A DNA stretch of 64,000 bases from the NCBI GenBank assembly GCA_018222915.1, contig JAAEZI010000005.1, positions 25,131-89,130 on the forward strand, written 5' to 3'. The notes beneath the pieces are model-generated. The model was not told the DNA's origin and ran no database searches. It was given only the letters and a program-made list of their open reading frames with translations. The position numbers and the translations under genes are program-made. Each line of letters begins with the position of its first letter. The stretch's first letter is position 1. Positions 55,783-62,674 of this stretch are shown piece by piece. This DNA is from Algicola sp. GTDB lineage: Bacteria; Bacteroidota; Bacteroidia; Flavobacteriales; Flavobacteriaceae.

Positions 55783-57426
55783 TTAGTTCACAGACATGAC
55801 GCCTAACTTATCCTCGGATTTTCTGGAAGAATAAATAATATATTCGCTAGCCGATTTTCTAAAAAATACACGTGGTCTTAAAACCAATTGAGATTTTTCT
55901 ACATCTTCTTGGTCTACACGCGTCATAACTCCGTTGTTATCAAACATCACAGCTGCTGGAACCGCCTTATTGTAATTACCTAACCATTTGATCTCCTCAA
56001 TATCCGTCACACCATAGTTTTTAGTATTGTCATTGAAAATCACGGTCAACTTATCATTTTCGTAGATAGGCATGGCGCTTAAATACTCAGGTCCTTTCCC
56101 AAGAACAGCGACAGGAACACTAAAACCTGCACTAACCGTAAAGTTCGAATTGCCTGCAAATGCCGCAAAACCAACCGACATTGTAGTGTATGCCGCCTTT
56201 TGTTTTTTTGGAATGACATTAGACCATCCAACAGTACCATCAGGATTTATAGATGTTACAATAATTTCATTATTGATATGTGTGACAGGCGTAAAAGATA
56301 ACGGCCCTATCCCTGAGCTACGGCCAACAATGATTTGTTGATATTCTGATAGAAGTATTAATCCACCATCACTCTTCTGCACTAAACTATGGGTCACATA
56401 CAACGGCTTTACGTCTTTACCTTTTTTAGCTCTACGTTCACCGATGAGCTTAACTTTCGTATCGTAGTCAAATTCATTGAATTTCAATTGATTGACACTT
56501 TTAGAATTGACATCTACAACAGCTGCATAAACACCCTTAAGTTCTTTATTTGCCTTTCCATTCTCTCTCACACTAGAATAAAAACCAACCAATCTTACTA
56601 TATCATCATCGCCAGCTAACATCTCGCAATTGATAATTTCTTTGTCTGTAAATGCAATGTCAATGATTTCTTTTTCATAACCATTAGCAGCCTTAAATGC
56701 ATGTACTTGAAATTTTTCGTTATTCGTTTTCGTTTTTTTATCCCGATAACTTTCATTGATAACAATGAACACATCGTCATTAAAATTAACGTCAAAATCT
56801 GCTATATCAAACTCTAAGTCTCTACGATCATTAAATGGCACTTTTTCTAAATGCTGTGCCATAATATCCAAATTATTATTGATCAGCTTCATTTCATACT
56901 GAATCACTTCTTCTTTGTCAAAAAGAGCAGCATGAAGGATTAGTAGTCGATCAGCATTTGGAGATTCCTTAATATAGAAGGCACCACGCTCACGGTTTTT
57001 TGTAACCTTTGTTGAAAATAATTTCTTTGTGTTTGTCGTTAAGGTTCCGTCTTCAGCTATTTCAGCCGCCAATAAATTCGCTACCTTTTCTTTTTTATCA
57101 TAGACACTACCCAAGATAAATATGCGTCCATCGAGAACAGCGATTTCCTCAAACTCTGGTTCTTTATCCTTAAAATCTCCCATTTCAATCTCATTCGTTG
57201 AGATCAAAGACATGTCGTCGGCATTAAACACTTTAATGTAGAAGTTGTTTTTGGTAGTTGCTAAAGTGTAAATCTTACCATTTGCCTCTCCAGCAATTCT
57301 CACAATTTTTTCCTTGTCAGCTTCAATTTCTTGTCCGAGTGCAATAGAAATAGGTCCAATCGTTTGCGCATTTACTAGACATGAGAGACCAATGGTCATG
57401 AATAGACACAGCATTTTTTTAATCAT
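55783..57426 (-). CDS. secreted all-beta protein, unknown
   Basis: A 547-residue protein with a signal peptide (MIKKMLCLFMTIGLSCLVNAQ). The body is alternating beta strands with short repeats of the kind seen in beta-propellers (for example IFILGSVYDKKEKVANLLAAEI and VRLVGFYSSVRENG). No T9SS sorting domain or enzymatic motif is seen. No family recognised. It has a canonical promoter at 57499-57471. Location is probably periplasmic or outer-membrane associated; the function is open. Confidence 0.65.
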   Translation of the reverse strand: MIKKMLCLFMTIGLSCLVNAQTIGPISIALGQEIEADKEKIVRIAGEANGKIYTLATTKNNFYIKVFNADDMSLISTNEIEMGDFKDKEPEFEEIAVLDGRIFILGSVYDKKEKVANLLAAEIAEDGTLTTNTKKLFSTKVTKNRERGAFYIKESPNADRLLILHAALFDKEEVIQYEMKLINNNLDIMAQHLEKVPFNDRRDLEFDIADFDVNFNDDVFIVINESYRDKKTKTNNEKFQVHAFKAANGYEKEIIDIAFTDKEIINCEMLAGDDDIVRLVGFYSSVRENGKANKELKGVYAAVVDVNSKSVNQLKFNEFDYDTKVKLIGERRAKKGKDVKPLYVTHSLVQKSDGGLILLSEYQQIIVGRSSGIGPLSFTPVTHINNEIIVTSINPDGTVGWSNVIPKKQKAAYTTMSVGFAAFAGNSNFTVSAGFSVPVAVLGKGPEYLSAMPIYENDKLTVIFNDNTKNYGVTDIEEIKWLGNYNKAVPAAVMFDNNGVMTRVDQEDVEKSQLVLRPRVFFRKSASEYIIYSSRKSEDKLGVMSVN

Positions 57427-57563: not shown

Positions 57564-58646
57564 TTATCCGTTGATAATTTTTTCTTGATGATTAATGGAC
57601 TCTTGGTGAATCGCTTTAAATAAGCGTAAGATAAATTCTTCACTCAGGCCTTTATCTTCACCTTCAAGAACCATTTTCCCAAGTATTTCATTCCATCTTT
57701 TACTCTGAAGAACGGCGACGTTCTTTTGTTTTTTCAATTCACCAATACCATCAGCCACCTTCATACGTTTCCCTAACAACTCAATAATTTGATTATCAAC
57801 CACATCAATCTGTGCTCTCAAATTATTTAAGGTGTTATTGTACTCGGCCTCAGGATCTGTTTCTTTACGGATTCTGAGATCTTCCATTATTTGTACAAGA
57901 CTCTTTGGAGTTACCTGTTGAGCGGCATCACTCCACGCATTGTCGGGATCAAAATGTGTTTCTATCATCAAACCATCAAAGTTCAAATCCAAGGCCGTTT
58001 GTGATACATCAAAAATCATGTTGCGTTTTCCTGTAATATGAGATGGGTCATTTATTAAAGGTAAGTCTGGAAATTTTGTTTGAAGCTCAATGGCGATTTG
58101 CCATTCAGGATTGTTACGGTATTTAGATTTTTCATAGGTTGAAAATCCTCTATGAATAACTCCAAGGTTCATAATATCTGAAGAAGCCAATCGTTCGATA
58201 GCGCCTAGCCATAATGGCAAATCTGGATTCACTGGATTTTTAACCAAGACGATTTTATCGGTTCCCTTTAGGGCATCGGCAATTTCTTGAACAATAAATG
58301 GACTCACCGTTGAGCGTGCACCAATCCACAACAAATCAATATCGTGTTCTAGTGCCAATTCCACATGATTTCTGTTAGCAACTTCGGTCGCTGTTTTTAA
58401 TCCTGTTTCTGCTTTGACCTTTTGTAACCATTTTAGTCCTAAGGCTCCAACACCCTCAAAATTTCCAGGACGTGTTCTCGGTTTCCAAATACCTGCTCGA
58501 TAATAATTGACATCCGTATCTTTAAGCTCATGGGCAATTTTAAGGACTTGTTCTTCCGTTTCTGCACTGCAAGGACCAGCGATAACCAGTGGGTGATTTA
58601 ATCCTAGATCATCCAACCATTTTCTCATTTCTTTTGTATTCTCCAT
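57564..58646 (-). CDS. bifunctional DAHP synthase / chorismate mutase
   Basis: A 360-residue enzyme. The DAHP synthase part (about 1-260) has VIAGPCSAETEEQVLKIA, YYRAGIWKPRTRPGNFEGVG and INDPSHITGKR. The C-terminal type II chorismate mutase part is at about 270-355 (LRAQIDVVDNQIIELLGKRMKVADGIGELKKQKN). It makes the first step of the shikimate pathway and turns chorismate to prephenate. Last gene of the pheA operon, and directly followed by the terminator. Confidence 0.95.
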   Translation of the reverse strand: MENTKEMRKWLDDLGLNHPLVIAGPCSAETEEQVLKIAHELKDTDVNYYRAGIWKPRTRPGNFEGVGALGLKWLQKVKAETGLKTATEVANRNHVELALEHDIDLLWIGARSTVSPFIVQEIADALKGTDKIVLVKNPVNPDLPLWLGAIERLASSDIMNLGVIHRGFSTYEKSKYRNNPEWQIAIELQTKFPDLPLINDPSHITGKRNMIFDVSQTALDLNFDGLMIETHFDPDNAWSDAAQQVTPKSLVQIMEDLRIRKETDPEAEYNNTLNNLRAQIDVVDNQIIELLGKRMKVADGIGELKKQKNVAVLQSKRWNEILGKMVLEGEDKGLSEEFILRLFKAIHQESINHQEKIING

Positions 58647-58655
58647 AATTCTCTT

Positions 58656-59507
58656 TTAAGCAATTCCGTTCAATATATCTTTTATATGATTTGTATTTTT
58701 CATTTCGTTGTAAATCTCATCAAAATCATCGGCTTCCATCAAAGCCTTAAATCCTTTGAGGTTATTTATGTATTCCTCTAAAGTTTCAATAACATTGGCT
58801 CTATTTTGTTTAAAAATAGGTGTCCACATATCTGGTGAGCTTTTAGCTAAACGCACGGTACTTTCGAATCCACTTCCCGCCATATCAAAAATATCACGCT
58901 CATTTTTTTCCTTTTCAATGACGGTCTTTCCTAACATAAAGGAAGAGATATGTGACAAATGTGACACATAAGCAATATGCTTATCATGTGCTTCAGGATT
59001 CATATAACGAATACGCATTCCCATATCTGAAAACAACTTCAGTGCTTTCTCTTGTAACTTAAAGGTCGTTTTTTCAACTTCACAAATGATGTTTGTTTTT
59101 TTCTGAAATAAGCCAGTCATAGCTGCCTTAGGTCCAGAAAACTCGGTGCCTGCAATAGGATGCGTTGCCAAAAAATTACGACGTCTTGGGTGTGATTCTA
59201 CTGATTGACAAACTGGTAATTTTGTAGATCCAACATCCACCACTAACGTCGTATCAGAAATAACATCCAGTATCTTAGGTAACACTTTTACAGCCGTATC
59301 TACAGGAATAGAAAGAATGACTAAATCGGCATGAATGAGATCCTCATACGTCGCTTTTTCTTGAATCACGTTTAAATCAATCGCCTGATCTAAATGAGCA
59401 TCATTCGTATCAATCCCATAAACCTTTGCCTTAGGATTTAATGATTGTATATCCATAGCCATACTACCACCAATCAACCCAACACCTATGATGTAAATTT
59501 TATCCAT
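58656..59507 (-). CDS. tyrA: prephenate dehydrogenase
   Basis: A 283-residue enzyme oxidising prephenate to 4-hydroxyphenylpyruvate with NAD. Seen: the GxGxxGG nucleotide site (GVGLIGGSMAMDI), HPIAGTEFSGPKAAM, and SHLSHISSFMLG. I start at ATG 59507 (MDKIYIIG), which begins the Rossmann fold. The frame extends 61 residues upstream (to 59690), but that part overlaps the aminotransferase gene and reads as noise. Six bases separate it from the aminotransferase stop. Confidence 0.94.
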   Translation of the reverse strand: MDKIYIIGVGLIGGSMAMDIQSLNPKAKVYGIDTNDAHLDQAIDLNVIQEKATYEDLIHADLVILSIPVDTAVKVLPKILDVISDTTLVVDVGSTKLPVCQSVESHPRRRNFLATHPIAGTEFSGPKAAMTGLFQKKTNIICEVEKTTFKLQEKALKLFSDMGMRIRYMNPEAHDKHIAYVSHLSHISSFMLGKTVIEKEKNERDIFDMAGSGFESTVRLAKSSPDMWTPIFKQNRANVIETLEEYINNLKGFKALMEADDFDEIYNEMKNTNHIKDILNGIA

Positions 59508-59512
59508 AATTT

Positions 59513-60658
59513 TTATTTCAGTCTTGCTAAAGCCTCTTCTAATTCTTCCAAAGGTGCACAAAGTGAAATCCTTATATATCTCTGACCATTGGATCCAAAA
59601 ATGGTTCCAGGAGTGATAAATATCGATTTCTCTTTTAAAATTAAATCTATGTATTCTTCGGCATCTAAATATTCGGGCAGTTTTGCCCAAACAAAGAGTC
59701 CAGATGCATTTTTATTGAATGTACAGTTTAAAGCTTCTGCAATTTTCCATACGACTTCACGACGTTGCTCATAAACACTATTGAGGCTCATATACCACAT
59801 ATCGGAACAGTTTAACGCTTCAACAGCGCCTTTTTGAATGCCCAAGAACATACCAGAATCCATATTACTTTTCACTCGCAATACCGCCTTTATATAATCA
59901 CCATGACCCATCAACATCCCGACGCGCCAACCTGCCATATTGAACGTTTTACTCAATGAATTTAATTCTAGACAGACCTCTGAAGCTCCTTTGTATTTCA
60001 AAATACTTCTAGGGTATTTGTTCAAAATAAAACTGTAAGGATTATCATTAACAATGAGGATATCATTTCGCTTAGCGAAAGTGATCAAATCTTCAAAAAG
60101 CTTGTTGGTTGCAATCGTTCCTGTTGGCATGTGCGGATAGTTTACCCACATTAATTTAACGTTTTCAACCCCTCTTTTTTCTAAAGCCAGTAAATCTGGG
60201 AACCAATGACTCTCCTCTGTTAGGTCATAAAATACAGGTTTAGCTCCCACCAAATTTGTCACGGATTTATAAGTAGGATAGCCTGGATTGGGAATCAAAA
60301 CCTCATCACCTTCATTTAAAAAAGCCATCGAAATATGCAGAATCCCTTCTTTACTACCCATTAATGGGAGCACTTCGGTTAATGGACTTAAAGGAACATT
60401 AAATCGGTCTTTATAAAATTGAACCATGGCTTCTCTGAGCTCTGGCGTTCCTTGATAACTTTGATATTTATGTGCCGCGTCTTCATTGAACGTCTCAACC
60501 AACGCGTTCAATACGCGTTCGGGCGGATTTAAATCCGGACTCCCAATCCCTAAATTAATAATAGGTTTTCCCTGGGAAATAAGCCTATTGACCTCTCTCA
60601 ATTTCTTTGAAAAGTAATATTCTTCTACTTGCTTCAAACGATCAGCTATCTGTATCAT
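59513..60658 (-). CDS. class I/II aminotransferase, probable aromatic
   Basis: A 381-residue PLP aminotransferase with NLGIGSPDLNPPERVL, the Schiff-base Lys in SLSKTFNMAGWRVG and the phosphate Arg in RISLCAPLEELE. Fold type I. In this operon it most likely makes phenylalanine and tyrosine from phenylpyruvate and hydroxyphenylpyruvate, or transaminates prephenate; the sequence does not decide. Its ATG overlaps the pheA stop by four bases (ATGA). Confidence 0.9.
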   Translation of the reverse strand: MIQIADRLKQVEEYYFSKKLREVNRLISQGKPIINLGIGSPDLNPPERVLNALVETFNEDAAHKYQSYQGTPELREAMVQFYKDRFNVPLSPLTEVLPLMGSKEGILHISMAFLNEGDEVLIPNPGYPTYKSVTNLVGAKPVFYDLTEESHWFPDLLALEKRGVENVKLMWVNYPHMPTGTIATNKLFEDLITFAKRNDILIVNDNPYSFILNKYPRSILKYKGASEVCLELNSLSKTFNMAGWRVGMLMGHGDYIKAVLRVKSNMDSGMFLGIQKGAVEALNCSDMWYMSLNSVYEQRREVVWKIAEALNCTFNKNASGLFVWAKLPEYLDAEEYIDLILKEKSIFITPGTIFGSNGQRYIRISLCAPLEELEEALARLK

Positions 60659-61482
60659 AATTTCGCATTTTTATATTCCCCTAACACCTTAAAATCTTGC
60701 GCCATGATTTCCATGATGGTTTTGGCTTTTTTATAATCCTTATAATCCTCGAAAGTGACATCTACAAAAAAAGCATACTTCCATGGTGTATCCATTTTAG
60801 GGAGTGATTGTATCTTGGTTAAATTTAGTTTACAATCACTTAAAACATTCAAAATAGTCGCCAAACTTCCTCTTTTATGGTCTAATTCAAATTTCACTGA
60901 AGCCTTATTAATTTCCGCCTCTGGAATTTCTGAATTTTTCGTCTTAACCACAAAAAAACGCGTCTCATTGTGCTTGATTGTTTGAATACTCTCTGCTAAA
61001 ATCTCGAGCCCAAACAATTGAGCCGCAAGCGCAGAAGCAATTGCAGCCACTTTACTTATTTGACCTTCTTGAATGCGTCTCGCTACCTCAGCAGTATCCT
61101 TATCTTCTATCAATTTGATATGCGGGTATTGCTTAAAAAATGTCTTGCATTGTAATAAAGCCATAGGATGCGAGTATACCTCTTCAATCTCTAAAATGGA
61201 TTGATTTGGCAATGCCATCAGATGGTGTTGGATATCTAAATAATGTTCTCCTATGATATGCAATCCGTGTAAATCGATAAGTGCATAGTTTGGAATAATG
61301 GAGCCTGCAATGGAATTTTCGATAGCCATTATAGCGGCTTCACTTTGGTTATTTAAAATACTATCTGCCACAGCATCAAAAGTCAAACACTCGTTGACTG
61401 AAATCGTCTCATCAAAAAATTGCTCCGACACAATATGATGAAAAGACCCTTTAATACCCTGTATAGCGACCGATTTTATCAT
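60655..61482 (-). CDS. pheA: prephenate dehydratase
   Basis: A 275-residue enzyme: prephenate dehydratase domain at about 1-175 (GIKGSFHHIVSEQFF, ENSIAGSIIPNY, IKHNETRFFVV with the TRF catalytic motif) and a C-terminal ACT domain at about 190-270 (SVKFELDHKRGSLATILNVLSDCKLNLTKIQS) that usually binds phenylalanine. I start at ATG 61482. The frame runs on to an ATG at 61503, but that codon lies inside the terminator hairpin. The chosen ATG directly follows the T run of the attenuator. Confidence 0.95.
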   Translation of the reverse strand: MIKSVAIQGIKGSFHHIVSEQFFDETISVNECLTFDAVADSILNNQSEAAIMAIENSIAGSIIPNYALIDLHGLHIIGEHYLDIQHHLMALPNQSILEIEEVYSHPMALLQCKTFFKQYPHIKLIEDKDTAEVARRIQEGQISKVAAIASALAAQLFGLEILAESIQTIKHNETRFFVVKTKNSEIPEAEINKASVKFELDHKRGSLATILNVLSDCKLNLTKIQSLPKMDTPWKYAFFVDVTFEDYKDYKKAKTIMEIMAQDFKVLGEYKNAKL

Positions 61483-61509
61483 AAAAAAAGTCCCGATTTT
61501 CATCGAGAC
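61483..61509 (-). terminator. attenuator terminator before pheA
   Basis: Reading leftward, stem GTCTCGAT (61509-61502), tetraloop GAAA, stem ATCGGGAC (61497-61490, one T-G pair), then seven T's (61489-61483), and the pheA ATG at once. It would stop transcription before the operon unless an alternative fold forms. Confidence 0.85.
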
Positions 61510-61555
61510 CTATATTAAATTTATTGTTTATAAATTACACATATAACGCCTCTCA
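61504..61555 (-). promoter_or_regulatory. antiterminator of the pheA leader
   Basis: Two distant segments pair: TGAGA (61555-61551, containing the leader peptide stop codon) with TCTCG (61508-61504), and TTATAT (61546-61541) with ATATAG (61515-61510). They enclose a third, perfect hairpin AATTTAT-AAACA-ATAAATT (61536-61518). The segment TCTCG is also the 5' arm of the terminator, so the two folds exclude each other. Confidence 0.7.
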
Positions 61556-61612
61556 TTTCTCTGAAAAAAAGAAATAAAACCAGTTGTAATATGTGAAACT
61601 AAATGTGTTCAT
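61553..61612 (-). CDS. aromatic leader peptide of the pheA operon
   Basis: Nineteen residues: MNTFSFTYYNWFYFFFSEK, then TGA. Ten are aromatic (six Phe, three Tyr, one Trp), in a genome region where about 9 percent would be expected. It starts about 16 bases after a -7-like element, and lies 43 bases before the terminator hairpin of pheA. In the Phe/Tyr leaders of Proteobacteria a ribosome stalled at such codons frees the antiterminator. The peptide is probably only a sensor. The frame is short and not conserved-checked, but content and position are very unlikely by chance. Confidence 0.85.
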   Translation of the reverse strand: MNTFSFTYYNWFYFFFSEK

Positions 61613-61627
61613 TGTATAATTATGTTG

Positions 61628-61656
61628 CTAATGTAATTATTATTTTAAGAAATCAA
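61628..61656 (-). promoter_or_regulatory. promoter of the pheA leader transcript
   Basis: Reading leftward, TTG (61656-61654), 18 bases, TACATTAG (61635-61628), 7 of 8 to TAnnTTTG. The start of the leader ATG is 16 bases downstream. Spacing is canonical; the penultimate base of the -7 element is off. Confidence 0.55.
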
Positions 61657-61737
61657 AATTGTTCAACCACATTTTTAGGGAATCTATTTCAGTTTTAAAG
61701 ATTTCACAATTTAAACAAACACCTTACTTATAATTAC

Positions 61738-61762: not shown

Positions 61763-62674
61763 ATGTCTATTGAAGTTACTCATATCACCAAATGCTATGG
61801 TGAACAAAAGGCTTTGGATGATATTACCTTCTCTGTAAATAAAGGTGAAATTGTTGGTTTTTTGGGTCCAAATGGTGCCGGAAAATCAACATTAATGAAA
61901 ATACTTACCACATATATTGAGGCTACTGAGGGCGAAGCAAAAGTTAATGGGTTTAATGTACAAAGCGAAAAAATGGCTGTTCAAAAGAGCGTTGGATATT
62001 TACCAGAGCACAACCCGCTTTATTTAGACATGTACGTTAAGGAATATTTAAAGTTTAACGCTGGTGTTTATAATATCAATTCATCTCGAATAGAAGAGGT
62101 TATTTCCTTAACAGGTTTAACACCAGAATCCCACAAGAAAATAGGACAATTATCAAAAGGGTATCGACAACGTGTTGGACTGGCCAACGCATTGTTACAC
62201 GATCCGTCGGTTTTAATTTTAGACGAACCTACAACAGGTCTTGATCCTAACCAATTAATTGATATTAGACATCTTATTAAAAATATTGGTAAGGACAAGA
62301 CCGTATTTCTCTCCACTCACATCATGCAGGAGGTAGAGGCTATTTGTGACCGTGTGATTATCATCAACAAAGGTAAAGTTGTTGCAGACAAGAAACTCAA
62401 AGAATTACGAGATGAGAAAGAACAGACGGTTATTGTAGAATTTGATTATCGGGTTGAAGATGCGTTTCTTCTCAAACTACCAAAAGTTAATCGTGTGAAA
62501 AATACGCATGATTTTGTTTATGAAATCACCTTTTCTACTTCGGAAGATATGCGTTCACATGTGTTTGATTTCGCACATGACAATCAGTTAAAAATTCTTC
62601 AATTAAATCAGAAAAATGCCAGTTTGGAAAGTTTATTCAGAGATTTGACAACGGAGGCTATTCCTCAAAAATAA
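61763..62674 (+). CDS. gldA: gliding-associated ABC transporter ATPase GldA
   Basis: A 303-residue ABC ATPase: Walker A GPNGAGKST, signature LSKGYRQRVG, Walker B VLILDEPTTGLDP, and the H-loop STHIMQEVE. The C-terminal segment after about 220 is the extension seen in GldA. With GldF and GldG it forms a transporter required for gliding and secretion of some cell-surface proteins in Flavobacterium; gldF and gldG are not in the window. Its 3' end overlaps the convergent DUF2807 gene by 17 bases. Confidence 0.9.
   Translation: MSIEVTHITKCYGEQKALDDITFSVNKGEIVGFLGPNGAGKSTLMKILTTYIEATEGEAKVNGFNVQSEKMAVQKSVGYLPEHNPLYLDMYVKEYLKFNAGVYNINSSRIEEVISLTGLTPESHKKIGQLSKGYRQRVGLANALLHDPSVLILDEPTTGLDPNQLIDIRHLIKNIGKDKTVFLSTHIMQEVEAICDRVIIINKGKVVADKKLKELRDEKEQTVIVEFDYRVEDAFLLKLPKVNRVKNTHDFVYEITFSTSEDMRSHVFDFAHDNQLKILQLNQKNASLESLFRDLTTEAIPQK

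Follow-up and report, generated by a model that had tools for sequence, protein, structure and literature searches.

A probable ribosome-mediated transcription attenuator with an aromatic leader peptide upstream of the pheA operon in Flavobacteriaceae

Comparative sequence analysis and models of RNA folding indicate, with a probability that we put at about 90%, that the pheA operon in the window (the whole 64,000-nucleotide stretch of DNA analysed here, G000:C84:25131-89130) is preceded by a ribosome-mediated transcription attenuator of the classical kind. Charged tRNA-Phe/Tyr is the best reading of the signal that would be sensed, with the leader perhaps sensing Trp as well. The original prediction for this DNA had proposed ribosome-mediated attenuation by means of an aromatic leader peptide, together with a pheA start at 61482 in place of 61503 and the composition and orientation of the operon, and each of these proposals is well supported by the comparative evidence. 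Its antiterminator register, the role that it gave to the stop codon of the leader and its suggestion of novelty have to be revised.

Results

The source genome is a draft of 3.35 Mb in 94 contigs (completeness 94.98, contamination 5.42). Among the best 80 of 583 pheA matches, the nearest named relatives belong to Psychroserpens, in the family Flavobacteriaceae, with P. jangbogonensis, P. algicola, and P. luteolus showing 87%, 84%, and 82% identity, respectively. The operon is read on the minus strand in the order pheA, aminotransferase, tyrA, and DAHP synthase/chorismate mutase (Table 1), and the family matches identify these as genes for Phe and Tyr synthesis. An open reading frame of 547 aa, for which neither Pfam nor NCBIfam gives a match at E 0.001, is located 3' of the operon (55783-57426, minus strand).

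Table 1. The pheA operon of the window, its putative attenuator and the neighbouring divergent gene
Feature	Position	Strand	Details	Basis
Promoter-like site, Bacteroidota type	61628-61657	-	TTTG 61657-61654, N18, TACATTAG 61635-61628	Sequence and count among loci
Predicted leader ORF	61553-61612	-	MNTFSFTYYNWFYFFFSEK + TGA; ATG 61612, TGA 61555-61553; 6 Phe, 3 Tyr, 1 Trp	Core conserved in relatives
1:2 hairpin	61551-61579	-	61579-61568 with 61562-61551	Leader folds; RNAalifold consensus of 48 relatives, columns 33-42 with 47-58
2:3 antiterminator hairpin	61505-61552	-	GAGGC 61552-61548 with GTCTC 61509-61505	Register, covariation, folds
3:4 intrinsic terminator	61483-61511	-	AGGTCTCGAT-GAAA-ATCGGGACTT + T run 61489-61483	Sequence, relatives, folds
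pheA, prephenate dehydratase	60655-61482	-	275 aa; start ATG 61482	PF00800, E 1.5e-53
Class I/II aminotransferase	59513-60658	-		PF00155
tyrA, prephenate dehydrogenase	58656-59507	-	Read from MDKIYIIG; frame checked	NF006307 above cut-off; PF02153, PF20463
DAHP synthase fused to chorismate mutase type II	57564-58646	-		PF00793 + PF01817
gldA	61763-62674	+	Upstream of pheA, divergent	TIGR03522 above cut-off

All of the minus-strand parts named in the original prediction are located where it had placed them. The promoter-like TTG (61656-61654) is separated by 18 bases from TACATTAG, as had been described, and is named on the basis of the Bacteroidota promoter consensus; 76 of 122 loci have the pattern TTTG-N17-20-TAnnTT[TA]G 5' of the leader core (46 lack it), versus 0.3% of mononucleotide shuffles. 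Further downstream is the 19-codon frame, for which translation predicts the anticipated ten aromatic residues (10/19 being Phe, Tyr, or Trp), and then the hairpin with a GAAA loop (stem 61511-61488), whose run of seven T residues does adjoin the pheA ATG in the window sequence. An ATG lies inside the terminator in 49 of the 122 loci, and the one in the window, being in frame with pheA, can mislead start calls; such an ATG is in frame and open to pheA in only 5 of the 122 loci, the window included, and 61503 was rejected as a conserved pheA start for this reason.

Our script places an intrinsic terminator 3' of the leader in 122 of the 130 loci, and inspection by eye adds three more (L079, L116, and L129). 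Given that the T run of the window adjoins the pheA start, the leader might be thought to act mainly on pheA translation, by reinitiation or occlusion, with termination being secondary, and reinitiation at leader genes is proposed in PMC4833913. The stem, however, is separated from pheA by 4-137 nt in the 122 loci, and by as much as 915 nt at the extreme, while the terminator and the arm are kept, which makes a mainly translational role very improbable. A second terminator with 82% identity over 49 bases to the pheA terminator region is located 5' of another gene in the same genome (G000:C67:4607-4655, L003), with no aromatic frame being apparent within the 300 bases inspected there.

The 3' arm of the antiterminator is shared with the terminator, and the two hairpins are mutually exclusive. 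The original prediction had paired TGAGA (61555-61551) with TCTCG (61508-61504). Both motifs are present, and an antiterminator does exist, but the conserved and stronger register is GAGGC:GTCTC, which has an energy of -4.5 kcal/mol as a small hairpin versus -2.6 kcal/mol for TGAGA:TCTCG. Being weaker, and shifted from the conserved register by three bases in the 5' arm and one base in the 3' arm, TGAGA:TCTCG was rejected as the main pairing. Inner helices of the antiterminator are formed by 61546-61541/61515-61510 and 61536-61530/61524-61518. To these elements we add a 1:2 hairpin, absent from the original prediction, in which the Phe codons are paired with a stretch that precedes the antiterminator arm and includes its start, the overlap with this arm being 2 nt in the window. 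Two hairpins, 1:2 and the 3:4 terminator, are obtained by RNAalifold for 48 close relatives.

If it is assumed that transcription and translation are coupled in Bacteroidota, these parts suggest how the operon might be controlled. RNA polymerase would start near 61623, and a ribosome would translate the aromatic leader. At low levels of charged tRNA-Phe or tRNA-Tyr, the ribosome would stall on the aromatic codons and GAGGC would be left free to pair with GTCTC once the latter has been synthesized, allowing the polymerase to proceed into pheA. A ribosome at the stop codon would cover GAGGC, with the terminator then forming and transcription ending at the T run.

Upstream DNA was taken for all 130 pheA matches in 149 Flavobacteriaceae genomes (19 genomes are without a match), and a leader was defined as a short open reading frame with at least 7 Phe, Tyr, or Trp residues within 14 codons. 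An ORF scan finds such a frame upstream of pheA in 124 of the 130 cases. Among the controls it appears in 34 of 650 dinucleotide shuffles and, when the 130 stretches are read on their reverse strand, in 4 of 130; the stricter threshold of at least 8 aromatic residues retains 120 of 130 versus 7 of 650 dinucleotide shuffles. The aromatic leader exceeds chance expectation. Six loci are missed by the scan (L015, L019, L086, L100, L115, and L123). In L015, a contig end cuts into the leader and the core is still visible, and the element is 514, 339, and 915 nt upstream in L019 (peptide MNTTVYTYQTWNYFFFSKRNETSYV), L086, and L123, respectively; these four bring the total to 128 of 130 pheA-bearing genomes. 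No leader element is seen in the upstream DNA of L100 and L115, both of which have pheA. Alignment of the region across Flavobacteriaceae had been put forward as a check on the original prediction, and both the aromatic frame and the paired arms prove to be conserved.

A second set was composed of the best 80 of 583 confirmed pheA loci, with 420 nt of upstream DNA (less at contig ends). Of these best 80, 79 contain 14 consecutive codons that are free of stops and include at least 7 aromatic residues, a count that has no shuffle control of its own, and no such run is seen in the upstream 420 nt (or less) of the remaining locus, L182. Outside the family and within the same class, 34 pheA loci were examined (39 places minus G000, three from the same family, and G275, which is a partial match). 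An aromatic core of at least 7 residues is found in 18 of these 34 loci; 13 of the 18 have a terminator by script, and arm pairing is at or below -8.0 kcal/mol in all 13.

In alignment A1, which holds the 48 of 122 sequences with a GTCTC-type arm and similar length, 283 of 288 antiterminator cells are paired (98.3%) versus 18-43% when the arms are slid, with zero double changes in the antiterminator among these close relatives. The terminator arm takes the forms GTCTC (70), GTCCC (25), GTCCT (13), and others (14) in the 122 loci, and the leader arm tracks these changes. Mean pairing energy is -10.2 kcal/mol for arms from the same locus versus -7.8 kcal/mol for arms from mixed loci, values that, like the spacing and nascent-fold counts given below, lean towards pairs because the arms were picked by best pairing. 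When all 122 sequences are aligned using MAFFT, without fitting the alignment to the helix, 609 of 731 cells are paired (83.3%, which is probably low given that part of the wider group is off by a column or two) versus 28-56% when slid. When arms are swapped among the 122 sequences (n = 500), paired cells average 77.2% and never exceed 78.9%, the margin of the real arms over the swap mean being six points, and cells changed on both sides number 70 in the 122 sequences versus 13-33 when slid. The antiterminator and the terminator covary across Flavobacteriaceae. The arm pairing of the window is the ninth weakest among the 122, and no good arm (energies above -5 kcal/mol) is present in six loci (L051, L054, L113, L121, L132, and L133), which were left out of the spacing, stop-position, and nascent-fold counts so that these refer to 116 loci.

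The same observations bear on the idea that the hairpin is an ordinary, constitutive terminator that merely limits transcription into pheA, with the upstream frame being fortuitous. Although a strong intrinsic terminator is indeed present, the aromatic frame is kept in nearly all genomes with pheA, the leader and terminator arms covary, and gldA is divergent, meaning that there is no incoming gldA transcript to end; a constitutive terminator is therefore very improbable.

A covariance model trained on the 48 sequences (R1) gave 95 matches in 91 of the 149 family genomes. Of these matches, 90 are upstream of pheA, on the same strand and within 1 kb, with 42 of the 90 genomes being outside the training set. 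The other five comprise a copy on another contig of G048 (G048:C240), a leader rich in Met and Cys in G003, and three terminator-like matches at other genes, and all four apart from the G048 copy have E values of at least 2e-4. The R1 search gave no match in 40 of the 130 pheA genomes. The pattern GAGRC-N25-55-GTCTCGAT-N2-6-ATCGRGAC has a single occurrence in the source genome, which is at this site. A metabolite-binding riboswitch or T-box driving the terminator, with the short frame being incidental, would account for a structured and conserved 5' element with a terminator, but it is scarcely credible given that no Rfam 15 family reaches its cut-off on the window leader (the best, RF01859 Phe_leader, reaches 18.9 bits over the element versus a gathering score of 55, E 0.7) and that aromatic codons and short arms are conserved while the AU-rich linkers drift between groups.

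Attenuation as proposed above depends on where the ribosome stands, and the original prediction had assigned the stop codon of the frame a role within the antiterminator itself. The codon on which that role rests is not a conserved one. TGA is directly before the GAGGC arm, making the window one of 9 of 116 loci with a stop codon at or before the arm, and the stop codon is between -8 and +19 nt from the arm start in 114 of 116 loci, with the remaining two at +22 and +25. In the same-genus loci L005 (P. algicola, also L181) and L179 (P. luteolus), a Lys codon occupies the TGA site and the frame extends to ETLYV*, and in L178 (P. jangbogonensis) a TAA is found right after FFFS, earlier than the stop codon of the window. 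The TGA is lineage-specific and not present in the same-genus relatives; judging from these sequences, the stop codon drifts and the arm stays fixed. At either stop, that of the window or that of the relatives, the arm would still be covered by the ribosome. We considered whether the early stop had arisen through a one-base indel in the T run and dropped this idea, since the window and the same-genus L005 align without gaps there. In L178, L183, L192, L194, L202, and L237, the stop codon is right after the aromatic run (FFFS*, FFFK*, or FFFR*), an arrangement more extreme than that of the window.

In 108 of 116 loci, the arm starts 8-13 nt past the final aromatic codon of the core, and a ribosome stalled at this codon would reach with its front to about the start of the arm. 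Nascent RNA ending before the 3' arm of the terminator was folded with an assumed ribosome footprint. In these models, 114 of 116 loci form the antiterminator when the ribosome is placed two codons short of the last aromatic codon, and 2 of 116 do so when it is at the stop codon. For the window, the antiterminator is predicted with the ribosome at every one of the six aromatic codons that were tried, but not when it is at TGA. When the ribosome is omitted, 74 of 116 loci, including the window, still form the antiterminator, with a shortened 1:2 hairpin next to it, and because of this the classical expectation that an untranslated leader is off is not supported; the notion that the 1:2 hairpin holds an untranslated leader off is likewise not borne out. 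When the whole terminator is available, the antiterminator ranks as the best fold in 1, 12, and 0 of the 116 loci with no ribosome, a stalled ribosome, and a ribosome at the stop codon, respectively, and in the window it is not the best fold with the stalled ribosome. The energies of the two hairpins are close in the window, at -11.6 versus -12.3 kcal/mol, with family medians of -13.55 and -12.9 kcal/mol. Because the terminator is the more stable fold in the finished RNA, the switch would have to be kinetic and set during transcription.

Two other leaders in the source genome are counted in favour of the attenuation reading for pheA. The first (L172, G000:C82) is 5' of hisG and has a His-rich frame, MNFIQLHHHHFHTCTQAS, and then a terminator with a 5' arm that pairs with the end of the frame at -12.4 kcal/mol, features by which it is probably a his attenuator. 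The second (L173, G000:C49) is 5' of trpE, with a Trp-rich frame, MNTILNHTWWWATRNSKFVS, and then a terminator; it is probably a trp attenuator in which pairing of the antiterminator arm is weaker or extends into the loop (-5.6 kcal/mol for the arm, or -8.7 kcal/mol with the loop). No leader is seen in the region upstream of ilvD.

Two further frames were noted in the course of this work. In the source genome, an Ile/Thr/Met-rich frame, MKMSHQVQISLQNSITMIFGMTFGIMTLRG, is found 5' of thrA (L262, G000:C42), shortly before this gene with a homoserine dehydrogenase domain. In another Flavobacteriaceae genome (L258, G003:C4:25571-25691, minus strand), a Met/Cys-rich frame, MNKNLNIMCRCMMCINYAGDTIV, and a terminator precede a metY-like gene, which looks, on the basis of its translation, like one for O-acetylhomoserine sulfhydrylase; L258 might possibly be a Met/Cys attenuator.

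Discussion

The suggestion in the original prediction that this attenuator may be new is too strong. In its section on 5' cis-regulatory RNAs, the 2021 study of F. psychrophilum (PMC9723704) reports strong clues that leader peptides attenuate amino-acid operons from an upstream position, and names conserved, structured 5' elements, upstream of pheA and hisG for example, that occur in other Flavobacteriaceae genera and have no Rfam hits. Its Flavobacterium psychrophilum pheA element precedes the same gene in the same bacterial family, and we infer that it is the element seen in the window; for pheA, the section specifies neither peptide nor arms nor covariation. A search of the open-licence literature found no flavobacterial pheA attenuator worked out to the level of its peptide and arms. 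Others had already noticed this class of element, and what is added here is its anatomy, covariation, spread, and drifting stop, by which a brief mention in a transcriptome paper is turned into a testable anatomy with defined codons, arms, and compensatory changes. Moreover, the covariance model and the leader signature can be used in annotation of this element, the leader peptide being short.

A broader proposal is that attenuation forms an old, class-wide layer of control in Bacteroidota, with Phe/Tyr leaders of pheA in Flavobacteriaceae and other families, His and Trp leaders, and perhaps Met/Cys leaders of metY. One multi-aromatic leader would sense Phe and Tyr together, the drifting stop would tune basal read-through, and many leaders may be on when untranslated; we see the chances for and against this proposal as evenly balanced. 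The authors of PMC2965389 (2010) were aware of no leader-peptide system shown outside Proteobacteria and Actinobacteria before the Firmicutes case that they describe. The element in the window would extend to Bacteroidota a logic that has been described mainly from Proteobacteria and Actinobacteria. Work by Lopatovskaya et al. in 2010, cited in PMC4833913, may be relevant to Bacteroidota as well.

The enterobacterial pheA (pheL) attenuator has a Phe-rich leader peptide, rival hairpins, and a terminator just before the structural gene. The flavobacterial element resembles it, and RF01859 Phe_leader, in all of these respects: a Phe-rich leader ahead of pheA, rival hairpins, and a terminator before the gene. 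It differs in that the flavobacterial peptide is also rich in Tyr and contains Trp, that the operon is composed of pheA, aminotransferase, tyrA, and DAHP synthase, and that the antiterminator has a short GC arm and an AU-rich interior. The leader-peptide attenuators of trp and his operons in Proteobacteria and Actinobacteria likewise carry regulatory codons, and the position of the ribosome picks terminator or antiterminator. Regulatory codons and a choice of hairpin set by the position of the ribosome are also the features of the attenuator proposed here, whereas the host belongs to the Bacteroidota.
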